A stretch of DNA of 64,000 bases, taken from positions 1,673,501 through 1,737,500 of the forward strand of contig NZ_KI629785.1 of the NCBI RefSeq assembly GCF_000503775.1, written 5' to 3'. Of the stretch, positions 24,541 to 64,000 are shown one piece after another. The notes under the pieces were generated by a model, which was not told where the DNA came from, did not search any database, and was given only the letters and a program-made list of their open reading frames with translations. The position numbers were made by a program, and so were the translations under genes. Each line of letters starts with the position of its first letter. Position 1 is the first letter of the stretch. This DNA comes from Brevibacillus panacihumi W25 (GTDB lineage: Bacteria > Bacillota > Bacilli > Brevibacillales > Brevibacillaceae).

Positions 24541-24685
24541 GGTCATCCGGCTGTAGTGGAGCGGCGGAAAAAGGGAAAAACGCTTTAGGCGGGTTGGGAT
24601 CTTCACTGGTGGCAGTACTGGCCGGCTCCATTCCAAATGCCTTGCGCTTTTTTTCCCTTTTTCCGCGACCAGCTTCTACTGGTCC
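24541..24685 (+). repeat. Intergenic structured repeat, copy A (short form)
   Basis: About 145 bases between two convergent genes, related to copies at 36.5 and 58.5 kb. The ends GCGGAAAAAGGGAAAAA (24564-24580) and TTTTTCCCTTTTTCCGC (24650-24666) are perfectly inverted. It shares the GGCGGGTTGGGATCTT core and the CCAAATGCCTT right part with the other copies. It lacks roughly 100 bases of their middle, so it looks like an internally deleted form. No transposase or coding function is seen. Confidence 0.8.
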
Positions 24686-56769: not shown

Positions 56770-58272
56770 CTATGAAATTGCCTGGTTCGCCATCGCTGCC
56801 GCAAGGATTTCCTCCTGCCTAATGTTGGCTGCTTCGAGAGTCGCTGTCACCCTTCCCTCGCGCATGACGATTATCCGGTCACTCATGCCGATCACTTCCG
56901 GCATCTCGGAGGACACCATGATGATGCCATAGCCTTGAGCGGCCAGCTCGCTGATCATGTTATAGATCGCCGATTTGGCCCCGACGTCGACGCCTTTGGT
57001 CGGTTCGTCGAGGATCAGGACGTCCAGGTGGGCGGTCAACAGTTTGGCCACCACCACTTTTTGCTGATTCCCGCCAGAGAGGGAACTGGCGAGATCAAAA
57101 ATGCTCTGCGCCTTGACCTGCACCTTTTCCCCCAGGGTCTTTGCCAGCTCCGCCTCTTTTTTCTCATCCACCCAGCCCCTTCGGGAAAGCTGGTCCAAGG
57201 CAGACAATGTGATGTTGCGTCCGATGCCCCAATCCAGCACCAGCCCTTGTTTCTGCCGATCCTCCGGCAGGTAGCCGATGCCCGCCTTCATCGCATCCCA
57301 AGGATGACGTATGACGATCTCTTCGCCTCGCAGAAACACCCTGCCCCGATCCGGATTCGCGATGCCAAACAACGCCTGGCACACCTCCGTCCTCCCGGCA
57401 CCGACCAGTCCGGTCAAACCGAGGATTTCGCCGCGTCTCAGCGAAAAAGAGACATCTGCAAAATAGCCCGTCTTGCCCAGCCCCTCGACCCGCAGCACTT
57501 CTTCGCCCGGTTCCGTACGTCTTTGCGGGAACATTTGCGTGATCTGCCGCCCCACCATCGCGACAATCAACGCCTCGTTGGATATCTCCTTGACGCCCCA
57601 GCTCCCGATATAGCGCGAATCGCGAAAGACTGTCACTTTGCTCGCCAGGCGGTACATGTCCTCGAAGCGATGCGAGATGAAGATGATGGATGCCCCATCG
57701 TCCCGCAGCTTTTCGGCAATCCTGTACAGCTCCTCGCTCTCCCTCGCCGTCAACGCTGCTGTCGGCTCATCCATGATGATGATCCGGGCCCGCATCGACA
57801 AGGCCTTTGCAATCTCGACGATTTGCTGCTGCGCGACACTCAGTGCCCCCATCCTCGTACGCGGGTCCAGATTGCTGCCCAGTTCTTGCAAGAGCAGCTT
57901 GGCCTCTTCATGCATCTCGCTCCAGCGGATCCGCTTGGTTCGCTTGCTTACCTTCTCATGACCCATGAATATATTTTCCGTGACGCTCAGATCGGGAAAG
58001 CAGGTCACATGCTGATAGATCGCCGCGATTCCCAGCCTTTGGGCATCCTTCGGGCTGTTGATTTGCGTGCGCACCCCGTTCAGGATGATTTCCCCCTCAT
58101 CCGGAAGATGGACACCTGTGATGATTTTGATAAATGTGGATTTTCCTGCGCCATTCTCCCCCATCAAGGCGTGGATTTCGCCTTTTTTAAGTTGAAAATG
58201 CACGCGGTCCAACGCCTTTACTCCTGGAAACGCTTTCGTAATTCCCTTCAGTTCCAACACATAGTCCGACAT
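56770..58272 (-). CDS. rhaT: Rhamnose ABC importer, duplicated ATPase
   Basis: A 500-residue sugar-type ATPase with two ABC halves. The first has GENGAGKSTFIKIITG, LSVAQQQIVEIAKAL and IIIMDEPTAALT. The second has GLVGAGRTEVCQALFG, LSGGNQQKVVVAKLL and VLILDEPTKGVDVG. This is the RbsA-type arrangement. It is the first gene of the eleven-gene operon, with GAGGAG before the ATG. The name follows rhizobial RhaT, not the E. coli permease. Confidence 0.92.
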   Translation of the reverse strand: MSDYVLELKGITKAFPGVKALDRVHFQLKKGEIHALMGENGAGKSTFIKIITGVHLPDEGEIILNGVRTQINSPKDAQRLGIAAIYQHVTCFPDLSVTENIFMGHEKVSKRTKRIRWSEMHEEAKLLLQELGSNLDPRTRMGALSVAQQQIVEIAKALSMRARIIIMDEPTAALTARESEELYRIAEKLRDDGASIIFISHRFEDMYRLASKVTVFRDSRYIGSWGVKEISNEALIVAMVGRQITQMFPQRRTEPGEEVLRVEGLGKTGYFADVSFSLRRGEILGLTGLVGAGRTEVCQALFGIANPDRGRVFLRGEEIVIRHPWDAMKAGIGYLPEDRQKQGLVLDWGIGRNITLSALDQLSRRGWVDEKKEAELAKTLGEKVQVKAQSIFDLASSLSGGNQQKVVVAKLLTAHLDVLILDEPTKGVDVGAKSAIYNMISELAAQGYGIIMVSSEMPEVIGMSDRIIVMREGRVTATLEAANIRQEEILAAAMANQAIS

Positions 58273-58326
58273 CGCTCTCCTCTTTTCTGTCCGAATATAT
58301 GTTTCTATCGTTGTATTGAGTTATTA

Positions 58327-58392
58327 TTTTGTTTGTTTTCTTCTGTTTATCTGTATGTTGATGATTATATATCTTTTGCTTTTGTTTGTATA
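58327..58392 (-). promoter_or_regulatory. Rhamnose operon promoter with spaced direct repeats
   Basis: On the minus strand a perfect TATAAT (58364-58369) lies 17 bases after TATACA (58387-58392). The decamer TTTTGTTTGT (plus-strand reading) occurs at 58327-58336 and 58380-58389, one overlapping the -35 and one downstream of the -10. Their spacing is 53 bases, about five helical turns, as expected for a looping or paired repressor. No regulator gene is adjacent. Confidence 0.55.
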
Positions 58393-58444
58393 TGCAATTT
58401 TTGTATTTTTCCTTGTTTTCAGAAAAATGTTGTTAAAGAATTTC

Positions 58445-58679
58445 GTGATCCTCTGACTGAAGTGGAGCAGAGGAAAAAGGGAAAAAAGCTCCAGGCGGGT
58501 TGGGATCTTCGCTGTGGGCCTCACTGGCCGCCTCCACTCCAAAGGCGGAACCGCGGCCAAAAGCAGCCACTTCCAAGACGTGTTTCAGAGTTGGCCGCTG
58601 AAATCTTGTTCCGGCTTGGTCAAGATCCCAAATGCCTTCGTTTTTTCCCTTTTTCCTCGACCAACTGTTTCTGGTCTCC
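58445..58679 (+). repeat. Intergenic structured repeat, copy C
   Basis: About 235 bases, very similar to copy B. Inverted ends GAGGAAAAAGGGAAAA (58470-58485) and TTTTCCCTTTTTCCTC (58643-58658), inner stem TTGGGATCTT (58500-58509) and AAGATCCCAA (58622-58631), and a GC-rich central hairpin. It lies between the rhamnose promoter and the tag gene. With the promoter, terminator and palindrome it accounts for the gap 58273-58801. Confidence 0.85.
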
Positions 58680-58687
58680 CTGATAAT

Positions 58688-58733
58688 AAAAAATGTCCCT
58701 CGACAGAAACATTTTCTGCTCCGGGACATTTTT
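58688..58733. terminator. Terminator of the tag gene
   Basis: AAAAAATGTCCC and GGGACATTTTT form the stem around a 23-base loop. Confidence 0.82.
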
Positions 58734-58748
58734 GAATCCTCCTAGTAT

Positions 58749-58760
58749 TTAACTAGTTAA
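58749..58760. repeat. Perfect 12-bp palindrome
   Basis: TTAACTAGTTAA in the short gap after tag. It could be an operator or chance in an AT-rich stretch. Confidence 0.35.
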
Positions 58761-58801
58761 TCAACCTAACTGCCGAGCATTCCAGTAGCAGGCTCACGCT
58801 C

Positions 58802-59356
58802 CTACTTTGCATAGCAATCACAGGTCATAATGTGATCGTTGACCATCCCTACTGCCTGCATGTAGGCATAGCAAATCGTCGAGCCTACGAACTTGAATCC
58901 TCGCTTCTTCAGGTCCTTGCTCATTTGGTCGCTGATCGGGGTCTGAGCCGGCACATCACTTAATTGGCGAAAATGGTTCTGGATCGGTTTGCCACCCACG
59001 AAGGACCAGATGTATTCGCGGAAGCTTCCGAATTCCTCCACGACCCGAAAATAAGCGTGGGCATTGGCGATTACCGCCTGGATCTTCAATCTATTGCGCA
59101 CGATTCCTTCGTCCTGGAGCAGCTCTTCTATCTTCTTCTCATCGTATTGGACAATCTTCGCCGGGTCAAACTGGTCGAAAGCGCGGCGATAGCCCTCTCT
59201 CTTTTTCAGGATGGTATACCAGCTCAAGCCGGCCTGCGCTCCTTCGAGATTAAGAAATTCAAACAGCAGGCGATCATCGTAGACAGGAACCCCCCACTCC
59301 TGATCGTGATACGCCTGGTACAACGGATCTTGCGTCACCCAACCGCAACGGTTCAT
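58802..59356 (-). CDS. tag: DNA-3-methyladenine glycosylase I
   Basis: A 184-residue base-excision enzyme that removes 3-methyladenine. NRCGWVTQDPLYQAYHDQEWG is the family start. The LEGAQAGLSWYTILKKREGYR stretch carries the catalytic-pocket Glu and Trp. The zinc snap is formed by the early Cys and His and the C-terminal NDHIMTCDC. The ATG at 59354-59356 has AAGGAG upstream; longer readings add an unconserved stretch. Single gene, followed by a terminator. Confidence 0.94.
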   Translation of the reverse strand: MNRCGWVTQDPLYQAYHDQEWGVPVYDDRLLFEFLNLEGAQAGLSWYTILKKREGYRRAFDQFDPAKIVQYDEKKIEELLQDEGIVRNRLKIQAVIANAHAYFRVVEEFGSFREYIWSFVGGKPIQNHFRQLSDVPAQTPISDQMSKDLKKRGFKFVGSTICYAYMQAVGMVNDHIMTCDCYAK

Positions 59357-59430
59357 CCCCAACACTCCTTCACTAGCGAACATATATTCTGATTTCAGAA
59401 TAATGCAAGTTAGGCTGAAGTGCAAGTTTC

Positions 59431-60098
59431 CTAGACTTTTGCCGGCTCCTTCCCATCGGCGAATTGCTTCAGGCAGGCATTTTCTCCAATCATGAGCAGG
59501 ACGTCGTTTTCCTTGATGATTTGGTCGGGAGAAGGATTGACGCTGATTTCTTCACGGGTTCTGATGGCGATTACGCTCAGATGGTATCTTGCCCGAATGT
59601 CCAATTCACGCAAGCTTTTTCCGGCCAAGCGGGAAGGCACCTTGATCTCCTCTATGCTGTAGTCCTTCGACACTTAATAAAATTCAACACGTTCGGCGAC
59701 ATCAGACTGTGGGCAACCCGTTCACCCATATCCCGCTCCGGGTACACCACTTTATCCGCTCCTATTTTGCTGAGCACTTTGCCATGGTATTTATTCAGTG
59801 CCTTCGCTACGATATGCTTCACACCGAGCTCTTTTAAAAGCAATGTGGTTAAAATGCTTGCCTGAATGTCATTGCCGATCGAGACGACTACGACATCGAA
59901 GTTGCGGATTCCGATCTCCCGCAACGCATTTTCCTCTGTGGTGTCGGCGATGACCGCATGAGTAACAAAGTCCCGGCTCTCTTCAATGCGAACTTCGTCT
60001 CTATCGATCCCCAGAACCTCATTCCCTGCCTCGTACAGTCGATTGGCAATGCTTGAACCAAATCTGCCCATTCCGATGATGGCGTATTGTTTTCCCAT
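59431..60098 (-). pseudogene. KtrA/KtrC-type K+ uptake regulator, frameshifted
   Basis: The two parts together match a complete 220-residue KtrA/KtrC protein. The RCK_N part (60098 to about 59676) has the NAD/ATP motif AIIGMGRFGSSIA and reaches SLMSPNVLNFI. The RCK_C part (from about 59673 to 59431) continues with SKDYSIEEIKVPSRLAGKSL. Between them the frame is broken: ATT-AA-GTG, where a complete gene would read ATT-nAA-GTG. One missing base near 59674 explains it. The first frame then ends early after NFIKCRRTTA. The start at 60098 follows AGGAGG at 11 bases. It may be a real inactivation, a split gene, or a sequencing error. The KtrB-type gene upstream is intact. Confidence 0.85.
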
Positions 60099-60132
60099 GA
60101 TGTCCATGACCTCCTTTCGTGAATGCCCCGTG

Positions 60133-61482
60133 CTACCCAATCATGAGCTTCCCTTTTGGATACTGGTAATGGTCCTTGCGTCTCTTCCTGGCCAGGGCGA
60201 AAGCGATCGTCAGTGTACCTACCCTTCCGGCGAACATCGTAAAAATAATCAAGATTCTTCCCAAGGGAGAAAGCTCTGGCGTCAGTCCCATGGAAAGGCC
60301 CACCGTACCGAAGGCGGAAGTCGCTTCAAACAAGATCATGAAAAAATCTGCCCCTTGCTCTGTAATCGTGAGACACATCGTGATACATGTCACAAGCAAA
60401 AGGCCGGCCACTGTTACCGTCAATGCCTTGTAGACCAGATCGTGCACAATCCGGTGCCGGAAAAAGGAAACATCCTCTTTGCCTTTGATCTGTGACCATA
60501 CCGCTCCCAATAAAGTAGCGGTCGTGGTCGTTTTGATCCCGCCCCCTGTAGACCCCGGAGACGCTCCTATGAACATGAGATAGATCGTCAAAAGAAGCGT
60601 AGGATGTGTCAAATCAGGAATATTGAGTGTGTTCGATCCTGCTGTCCGGGGAGTGACCGCTTGATAGAAAGAAGCGAGGAATTTTCCTGTTGCGCCAAGC
60701 GGTTGGATGGTTTTGGGGTTCTTCCATTCAAAGAACAAAATGAGCAATGTTCCCGCGACAAGCAAGATGGCGCTCATCGTCAAAACGACTTTGGTATGCA
60801 GGGAAAGGCGACGGGTCATCCGGTATTCGAACAGCTCATTCATCACGATAAACCCGATTCCGCCAAGCGTGATCAGGCCGGCTACGACCAAAGTGACCAA
60901 GGGATCTTCCGCATAGTCAGTCAGACTTTTAAACTCCCCCATGAGATCAAAGCCTGCGTTGTTGAAATTGGAGATGGCATGGAAAAACCCAAAGTATATC
61001 GCCCTGCCCAGCGGCATGTCGTAGGCAAAGCGAAGGCTGAGCAGCACTCCTCCGACGCCTTCTATGATCACGGTAAAAATCAGGATTTTCCTGGCCAGAC
61101 GAACGATCCCTTGGATGGAGAGGTGATTGAGCGATTCCTGGAGAAGCATTCTCTTTTTTAAGGAAACCCTTTTGCCCAGAATGAGAGCAAAAAAGGTGGC
61201 AAAGGTCATGAATCCGAGTCCCCCGACTTGAATCAACGATAGAATGACCAGCTGTCCAAACCAGGTAAAGGTGGAGCCGGTATCCACTACCACCAGCCCC
61301 GTCACACAGGTAGCGGAAGTCGATGTAAAAAGGGCATCCAGCCAAGGCAGCCCCTCTCCGTCTTGCGTCGCTATGGGGAAGGATAACAGAATGGAGCCAA
61401 TCAGAATGATAACGATAAAACCAATGACCAACACTTTCGGCGGATCCGGCGAAAACCGCTTTAATGATTGCTTGACGGCCAA
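60133..61482 (-). CDS. KtrB/KtrD-type K+ transporter membrane subunit
   Basis: A 449-residue membrane protein of the Trk/Ktr family. The four pore-loop repeats are visible: TSTSATCVTGLVVVD, ISNFNNAGFDLM, TPRTAGSNTL and TSAFGTVGLSMG, each with the filter glycine. It would import K+ (with Na+) once complexed with the cytoplasmic RCK ring of KtrA/KtrC, whose gene follows but is frameshifted. The start is a TTG at 61480-61482 behind AAGGATGGGA. No cyclic-di-AMP riboswitch is seen upstream. Confidence 0.92.
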   Translation of the reverse strand: MAVKQSLKRFSPDPPKVLVIGFIVIILIGSILLSFPIATQDGEGLPWLDALFTSTSATCVTGLVVVDTGSTFTWFGQLVILSLIQVGGLGFMTFATFFALILGKRVSLKKRMLLQESLNHLSIQGIVRLARKILIFTVIIEGVGGVLLSLRFAYDMPLGRAIYFGFFHAISNFNNAGFDLMGEFKSLTDYAEDPLVTLVVAGLITLGGIGFIVMNELFEYRMTRRLSLHTKVVLTMSAILLVAGTLLILFFEWKNPKTIQPLGATGKFLASFYQAVTPRTAGSNTLNIPDLTHPTLLLTIYLMFIGASPGSTGGGIKTTTTATLLGAVWSQIKGKEDVSFFRHRIVHDLVYKALTVTVAGLLLVTCITMCLTITEQGADFFMILFEATSAFGTVGLSMGLTPELSPLGRILIIFTMFAGRVGTLTIAFALARKRRKDHYQYPKGKLMIG

Positions 61483-61579
61483 ACGTATCCCATCCTTAGT
61501 TATCCAAAGTGAATCTTAAGTTCCTGTCCGATAGATTACCCAGCAAATGCTGCCAAAATACAACAGCCCCAGCCAATTG

Positions 61580-61620
61580 AAAAAACCGTGCTCCGACACA
61601 GGTACTGTGTGCAGGCACGG
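61580..61620 (-). terminator. Terminator of the TRAP transporter operon
   Basis: On the minus strand CCGTGC and GCACGG arms enclose an inner ACACAG/CTGTGT stem and are followed by six T residues. The promoter of the K+ transporter gene probably lies between here and 61483; I could not fix it. Confidence 0.88.
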
Positions 61621-61638
61621 CTATACGAGACAGATAGG

Positions 61639-62913
61639 CTATATCTTGATCCATTGAAAAATGGCAGTTGTCAGTTGCGGCACATAAGTGATCAGGAACA
61701 TCACGACGAACGCCATGACCAGGAATGGCAGCAACGCCCTCACCAGACGCTCGATTTTGACCTCCGCCAAAGCGGACGTCACAAACAAGACGGTCCCCAC
61801 TGGCGGCGTCATCAGCCCGATTGTCAGGTTGATGGTGATCAAGACACCAAAGTGAATCGGGTCCACACCGTAATTCATTGCAATCGGGTAGAGAATCGGC
61901 ACCAACAGAATCAACGCTGCTACCCCGTCCAGGAACATCCCGACAAGAAAGAGAATCAGGTTGACCAGAAGCAGGAAGGCCCACTGTGTATCAGCAAAGG
62001 CCAAGATGCTTTTGGCAATCAACTGCGGAATTTTTTCATACGTCAGCACCCAGCCAAACAGGTTGGATACGGTGATCAAAAAGGCAACAGTCGCGGACGT
62101 AATGACGGTATTGCTTAAAATTTTCGGCAAATCCTTGAATTTCAGCTCGCGGTAAAAGAAGGCTCCCACCAGGAAGGCGAGCAGCGCTGCGATGGCAGCC
62201 GACTCCGTCGCGGTGAAGATCCCCAGCAAAATCCCCACCATGATGATGGTTGGAATCGCCAATGCCGGCAGCACGTTGAACGTATCCTTCCAGACCTTGC
62301 TCCAGGTCGGCCGTTCGGAGCGGGGAAAGTTCTGTTTGATCGAGATCACGTAGATCATCAGGGCAAAACAAACGCCGAACAGAATCCCTGGCACAATCCC
62401 GGCAACAAACAACTTGCTGATGGACACGCCTGCCAACACGCCGTAAATGATGAACGGCATGCTGGGCGGAATCAGCGGTCCAACGATGGAGGAAGCGGCT
62501 GTCAGCGCGGATGCAAAATCGCGTGAATAGCCTTGCTTCTCCATCTCTGGCACAATGGTGCGGCTCATGACGGCTGTCTGTGCTGTAGCCGAACCCATAA
62601 TGGAAGCGAGGAACATGTTTGCCGCCACATTTACATAGGCCAGCCCCCCTCTGACGCTTCCGAAGACGACAGACGAAAAACGAATCAATCGGGTCGTAAT
62701 CCCGCCCGTATTCATCAATTCGCCGACAAGAACAAACATCGGAATAGCCAGCAAGCTGAAGTTCTGGATGCCGTTGAACAATCGCTGCGGAAGCGAGTCA
62801 AACATGCCAAAGTTTCCGGTGGTCAGCACGTAGATAACGGTGGTCAATCCGAGAACGATCGCGATCGGCACGCCAAACAAGAGCAAGAGAAAAAAGAGAA
62901 TCAGCGTGATCAT
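61639..62913 (-). CDS. dctM: TRAP transporter large permease (DctM)
   Basis: A 424-residue membrane protein with about 12 hydrophobic segments. GVPIAIVLGLTTVIYVL at the start and MFLASIMGSATAQTAVMSRTIVPEMEKQGYSRDFASALTAASSIVGPLIPPSMPFIIYG identify DctM. It carries the substrate with Na+. It overlaps dctQ by four bases. Substrate (C4-dicarboxylate, sialic acid or other acid) is unknown. Confidence 0.94.
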   Translation of the reverse strand: MITLILFFLLLLFGVPIAIVLGLTTVIYVLTTGNFGMFDSLPQRLFNGIQNFSLLAIPMFVLVGELMNTGGITTRLIRFSSVVFGSVRGGLAYVNVAANMFLASIMGSATAQTAVMSRTIVPEMEKQGYSRDFASALTAASSIVGPLIPPSMPFIIYGVLAGVSISKLFVAGIVPGILFGVCFALMIYVISIKQNFPRSERPTWSKVWKDTFNVLPALAIPTIIMVGILLGIFTATESAAIAALLAFLVGAFFYRELKFKDLPKILSNTVITSATVAFLITVSNLFGWVLTYEKIPQLIAKSILAFADTQWAFLLLVNLILFLVGMFLDGVAALILLVPILYPIAMNYGVDPIHFGVLITINLTIGLMTPPVGTVLFVTSALAEVKIERLVRALLPFLVMAFVVMFLITYVPQLTTAIFQWIKI

Positions 62914-63434
62914 GGGGCAGTCTCCTCCTTGACGGGCGGCGTCCCCCCGGTTTGCAAGAGTTTCAAAAGGTTATCGATGCCAAACAGCACGATCAGCACC
63001 ATACTGACTGGCAATGCAGCAAAGGTTACCCACAGCGGGACTGGCAATGTCGTCGCCATCTGGTTCAGCACTCCCTCGGAGGTGAGCCATTTCCAGCTGT
63101 AAACCCCGACGACTGCCCCAAAAAGCACAATCGAAATCTGGCTCACCAGTCTGAGGATAAAGAGAGGGGTCCCCTTTAACCGATCTTCCAGCAGCGTTAC
63201 CGAAGCCATCATGGAGCGCTTCAGGCCGATGCTTCCCCCCAAAAATGTAATCCAGGCAAACAGGATCAAGGACAGCTCGTCCGCCCAGTAAATGGGACTG
63301 TTCAAGAAGTAACGAAACACGACGGCAGCTACCAGATTTACCGCAAGGACCGCGATGATCGCCACATTGATCCATACAGTTATCGTCTCTATGACATCAC
63401 TAACCCGGGTCAGCATGTTTGCTCGTTTTTCCAT
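62910..63434 (-). CDS. dctQ: TRAP transporter small permease (DctQ)
   Basis: A 174-residue protein with four hydrophobic segments and the FRYFLNSPIYWADELSLILFAWITFLGGSIGLKR motif typical of DctQ. It binds DctM and is required for uptake. AAGGAGT precedes the ATG. It lies 13 bases after the binding-protein gene and is ATGA-coupled to dctM. Confidence 0.92.
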   Translation of the reverse strand: MEKRANMLTRVSDVIETITVWINVAIIAVLAVNLVAAVVFRYFLNSPIYWADELSLILFAWITFLGGSIGLKRSMMASVTLLEDRLKGTPLFILRLVSQISIVLFGAVVGVYSWKWLTSEGVLNQMATTLPVPLWVTFAALPVSMVLIVLFGIDNLLKLLQTGGTPPVKEETAP

Positions 63435-63447
63435 TCAGGTGTACTCC

Positions 63448-64000
63448 TTACTGGTTGGAAATCTCTTTCGCTTTCTTGAGGAAGGCGGCAATCTCAGGAC
63501 TCTTCGCGCTCCAAGCCGACTCTACCCCTTCTACGTATGGTGCGAAATCTTCTTTTTTCAGCTCGCTGATTGTAAAATCAGGCTGCTGTTTTAAAAATTC
63601 CAAACCTTCAGTCTCATTTTTCGAGACATCTTGAGCGTTGAACTCCATCGCTGCCGTGATGCTTTCCTCCAACAGCTTCTTGTCTTCGTCAGACAGCCCG
63701 CTCCAGCGATCCTTGTTGATCAGAATCCCGCCGATCCAGTACATATGCTTGGAAGGCGTCATTTCTTTGGCAATCTCATACAGTTTTTCCGGTTGCACAG
63801 ATTCCGAGTCGATGTCGATTCCATCAATGACACCGGTTTGCAGCGCAGTGTACACCTCGGTCAACGGCATCGGAGTCGGGCTCACCTGCAGAGATTTGTA
63901 GAAGTCGAGAATCGTCGGGCTCGGAGTCACACGAAGCTTCTTGCTCGCCAGGTCAGCCGGTTGTGTGATTGGAGCCGATTTCATCAGATAGTAACGGAAT
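63448..64000 (-). CDS. dctP: TRAP transporter substrate-binding protein (DctP), N-terminal part beyond window
   Basis: The last 184 codons of a DctP-family protein; the start lies beyond the right edge. DLASKKLRVTPSPTILDFYKSLQVSPTPMPLTEVYTALQTGVIDGID is the usual substrate-cleft region, and KHMYWIGGILINKDRW follows. The signal sequence is not visible. First gene of the dctPQM operon. Confidence 0.9.
   Translation of the reverse strand, partial: FRYYLMKSAPITQPADLASKKLRVTPSPTILDFYKSLQVSPTPMPLTEVYTALQTGVIDGIDIDSESVQPEKLYEIAKEMTPSKHMYWIGGILINKDRWSGLSDEDKKLLEESITAAMEFNAQDVSKNETEGLEFLKQQPDFTISELKKEDFAPYVEGVESAWSAKSPEIAAFLKKAKEISNQ

Follow-up and report, generated by a model that had tools for sequence, protein, structure and literature searches.

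A one-base gap places the RCK_N and RCK_C halves of a KtrA-type regulator in different frames beside an intact ktrB gene in the Brevibacillus panacihumi W25 genome sequence

The K+ channel regulator KtrA forms an octameric ring gated by ATP and ADP, in which c-di-AMP is bound by the RCK_C domain (PMC4714889, PMC5573677). B. subtilis KtrA lacking residues 145-222 (KtrA-deltaC, PDB 5but) can still bind ATP and ADP, assemble into a ring and associate with KtrB, but flux is no longer stimulated by ATP and the complex is stuck in a low-activity state; V. alginolyticus versions of the truncated protein were reported to be inactive (PMC4714889). In B. anthracis, KtrC is the partner of both KtrB and KtrD, and likewise one regulator for two channels has been described in S. 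aureus (PMC11302148). A natural two-subunit TrkA, TM1088A/TM1088B, is found in T. maritima; its overlapping reading frames contain an internal ribosome site (PMC4380455).

The stretch of DNA analysed here, referred to as the window, comprises 64,000 nucleotides of B. panacihumi W25 (RefSeq assembly GCF_000503775.1, contig NZ_KI629785.1, positions 1,673,501 to 1,737,500). It carries a regulator gene of this family in two frames next to a channel gene, with the following features:

60133..61482, minus strand: ktrB-type K+ channel gene of the TrkH family, 449 aa, TTG start, intact (PF02386, E 3e-60)
59652..60098, minus strand: ktrA first half (RCK_N / TrkA_N), 148 aa, the final seven residues out of frame (PF02254, E 7e-33)
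59431..59673, minus strand: ktrA second half (RCK_C / TrkA_C), 80 aa counted from the GTG at 59673, in the -1 frame (PF02080, E 1e-14)
59672..59679, minus strand: junction at which one base is absent compared to the intact sister gene, the sole gap within the 614 bp of near-identity
59638..59654, minus strand: possible reinitiation site, consisting of the first-half stop TAG (59654-59652), AGGAG, six bases and an in-frame GTG (59640), which would yield a 69-aa C fragment
59437..60050, no strand assigned: near-identical tract compared to strain JCM 15085, 614 bp with one substitution and one indel, flanks about 90% identical

The initial annotation had described RCK_N and RCK_C halves in two frames beside an intact channel gene; Pfam recovered both halves where it had placed them, and the channel gene next to them. 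The nucleotide-binding motif GxGxxG of the RCK_N protein reads GMGRFG, as is characteristic of the KtrA/KtrC family, and the adjacent 449-aa gene represents a partner channel of the KtrB/KtrD (TrkH) family. The sequence alone leaves the regulator undecided between KtrA and KtrC; we chose the name ktrA from its position beside ktrB. As ktrB is located upstream of ktrA, no polar effect of the break on the channel gene is to be expected. An Rfam scan of window positions 57000-64000 detected no c-di-AMP riboswitch and no other known RNA near the operon.

The nearest genome compared was that of B. panacihumi JCM 15085 (contig NZ_RHHT01000017.1), in which the same two genes are present in the same order and the regulator is read in a single frame of 222 codons, the junction having one additional base. 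The proposal that a single restored base would fuse the two halves is supported by this relative, in which the gene is whole. The first half from W25 aligns in register with JCM 15085 residues 1-141 and the second half corresponds to residues 143-222 of the same protein, so that RCK_N and RCK_C reside in the same polypeptide in JCM 15085 but not in W25. Since the JCM 15085 locus is a single frame, the split is a true feature of the W25 sequence and not a chance juxtaposition. Compared with its intact orthologue, the W25 gene has a frame-breaking change, as in a pseudogene, with sequencing error as the alternative. The intact JCM 15085 regulator aligned without gaps to B. subtilis KtrC (107/213 identical residues) and KtrA (102/212) from the Protein Data Bank. 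In this and in its KtrB-type neighbour it resembles the octameric RCK regulators of Ktr K+ channels (KtrA, PDB 4j90; KtrC, PDB 6i8v), from which the W25 gene differs in that its frame is broken between RCK_N and RCK_C. The JCM 15085 regulator (L007:936-1604) has GMGRFS instead of GMGRFG, a serine replacing the third glycine of GxGxxG, and its nucleotide binding may therefore be altered as well.

Over the 614 bp of the near-identical tract, the two regulator copies differ exclusively by one synonymous substitution and the missing base, and the KtrB proteins encoded next to them are 92% identical. Across the 207 kb compared, mean identity between both strains was about 95% in a mosaic pattern; 6% of 600-bp windows were at least 99.5% identical and 5% were below 89%. 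Three more such sharp tracts, with flanks 91-92% identical, occur within the 207 kb compared. The mosaic suggests frequent recombination between the W25 and JCM 15085 lineages, and the 614-bp tract probably arose by homologous recombination between them. Selection was rejected as the cause of the tract, as synonymous sites are identical too and similar tracts exist elsewhere. Because the regulator lies inside this probably exchanged tract, the break would postdate the exchange unless it is an assembly error; judged from the sequence, the frameshift either arose very recently or reflects an error of sequencing. The C half shows no visible decay, which is uninformative because the event is too recent to tell. 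Independently of the regulator, we noted about 30 tracts of at least 550 bp with at most two differences in the 207 kb.

We regard it as likely that the missing base is a real mutation. The opposing explanation, that the base was dropped in sequencing or assembly while the organism carries a whole gene, appears clearly less probable but is to be taken seriously: apart from one synonymous substitution the rest of the tract matches the intact sister gene, and no sign of decay is seen. Against an error stand the sequence at the junction, which contains no homopolymer run, the long contigs of a genome rated 100% complete, and the finding that frame-breaking indels are no commoner in W25 than in its sister. 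Over 207 kb, 144 non-triplet indels represented bases lost in W25 and 144 bases lost in JCM 15085, most of them between genes, where the alignment is poor or in mutually compensating pairs, and an indel-rich W25 assembly was rejected on account of this equal frequency. Where substitutions follow a coding-type pattern, uncompensated frame-breaking indels well inside a gene amounted to a handful per genome in about 207 kb, the level expected of ordinary pseudogenes. Reversible switching of ktrA on and off by gain and loss of the base would fit the observation that intact and broken forms are one base apart and otherwise nearly identical; nevertheless, such phase variation is most improbable, as the site contains neither a tandem nor a homopolymer repeat that would provide a slippage-prone tract and the gene is carried by two genomes only. 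In W25, another gene (L126, G000:C1:1048600-1050140), which encodes 512 aa in JCM 15085, was found to be broken by several frame changes.

Two further explanations would preserve the C domain in some form. The GTG at 59673 had been described as being without a ribosome site, which is correct for this codon (anti-SD duplex of -2.0 kcal/mol) but not for the in-frame GTG at 59640, where the sequence TAG-AGGAG-ATCAAG-GTG directly at the first-half stop allows a duplex of -11.4 kcal/mol; 3.5% of random sites were equally strong. If ribosomes reinitiated at 59640, some of the C domain could still be made, which counts against a simple broken-gene reading. Two cistrons, an RCK_N half and a 69-residue RCK_C fragment, would then join in trans to form a two-piece gating ring, for which TM1088A/TM1088B of T. 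maritima provides a parallel in that one locus contains two overlapping frames with a ribosome-site-like sequence between them. We consider this arrangement unlikely. The sequence preceding 59640 is probably fortuitous because it consists of codons for Glu-Glu-Ile-Lys that the intact gene shares; moreover, the fragment would be missing the first RCK_C strand, and no such split was found in any relative. TM1088B contains a full RCK_N in addition to RCK_C, whereas the second frame of W25 encodes RCK_C only and would yield a bare, shortened piece for which the T. maritima system offers no precedent; it is a loose analogue only. Alternatively, programmed -1 frameshifting or transcriptional slippage might produce full-length KtrA besides the short form. 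A -1 slip had been thought to be barred by the TAA in front of the GTG; this TAA is indeed present in the -1 frame, but the first frame runs 22 bases beyond it, and a slip within this 22-base overlap of the two ORFs would join the halves. What argues against slippage is not the TAA but the overlap itself, which contains no X_XXY_YYZ heptamer and no long run of A or T. The sister protein is made from one frame, which speaks against a conserved programmed site, and programmed frameshifting was consequently rejected, with hardly any credence left for slippage of either kind.

On balance, we favour the explanation that ktrA is a recently broken gene tolerated as a redundant copy. One base would have been lost between RCK_N and RCK_C, causing the ribosome to stop after RCK_N and seven wrong residues. 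If stable, the 148-residue product would, to judge from KtrA-deltaC, still form rings and bind KtrB, but would pass no ATP activation on to the channel, leaving KtrB in a low-activity state. The loss would be tolerated as the intact KtrC-type regulator of W25 could serve both channel proteins, in the way of B. anthracis KtrC. This regulator (G000:C1:1127264-1127905, 226 aa) is encoded by a stand-alone gene and has kept its RCK_C domain; W25 also encodes a second TrkH channel (G000:C1:1887596-1888909) and, adjoining an antiporter, a third RCK_C protein.

Each of the 26 Brevibacillus genomes encodes the stand-alone regulator as well as the second channel, and 21 of them encode a KtrB of the type described here, with 67-70% identity in the 19 genomes outside the W25/JCM 15085 pair. 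A regulator gene beside ktrB was found exclusively in W25 and JCM 15085; in each of the 24 other genomes searched, one full-length regulator was present and none was found adjoining ktrB. By analogy with B. anthracis and S. aureus, one regulator serving two channels would be the norm in the genus, with ktrA as a lineage-specific extra, the loss of which would restore this norm. In another Brevibacillus genome, the gene of the second TrkH-family channel is itself split over two frames (L159, G003:C1:3688754-3690102).

It had been feared that the transporter loses its c-di-AMP-binding C domain. Loss of RCK_C is supported by the intact sister gene, but the functional worry was overstated in view of the intact KtrC-type regulator in W25 and of the 24 genomes that manage with one regulator away from ktrB. 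Nor does simple insensitivity to c-di-AMP agree with the published C-domain deletion, which produced a low-activity complex without ATP stimulation (PMC4714889). As KtrA-deltaC binds KtrB but loses activation by ATP, low activity appears likelier for the truncated product than activity deaf to c-di-AMP, and loss of c-di-AMP inhibition would be relevant only for a channel that can still be activated. The two truncated proteins end at nearly the same point, at residue 144 in the construct and after about 141 native residues here; unlike the construct, the W25 form would be due to a natural frameshift and carries seven wrong terminal residues. The split ktrA would thus represent a natural counterpart of this gating construct, and a lineage with two regulators, compared to one in its relatives, could show whether one regulator takes over both channels. 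The RCK_N fragment may compete with KtrC for KtrB. That the locus encodes something new, either a young two-piece Ktr ring regulating KtrB differently with its second half made from 59640, or a bare RCK_N ring that brakes KtrB dominantly and is not displaced by KtrC, seems quite improbable to us. Overall, the split regulator is best regarded as an ordinary young broken copy of a redundant gene, or as an assembly error.

Close to the locus, an intergenic repeat of roughly 210 bases with long inverted ends is located at window positions 58465-58690. It gave no Rfam match in the region, and its predicted fold is strong, with an energy of -90.9 kcal/mol (z -4.7). The W25 genome contains at least 40 copies with 76-83% identity, with similar stretches near window positions 24630 and 36667, and the JCM 15085 contig carrying ktrAB breaks at this repeat.
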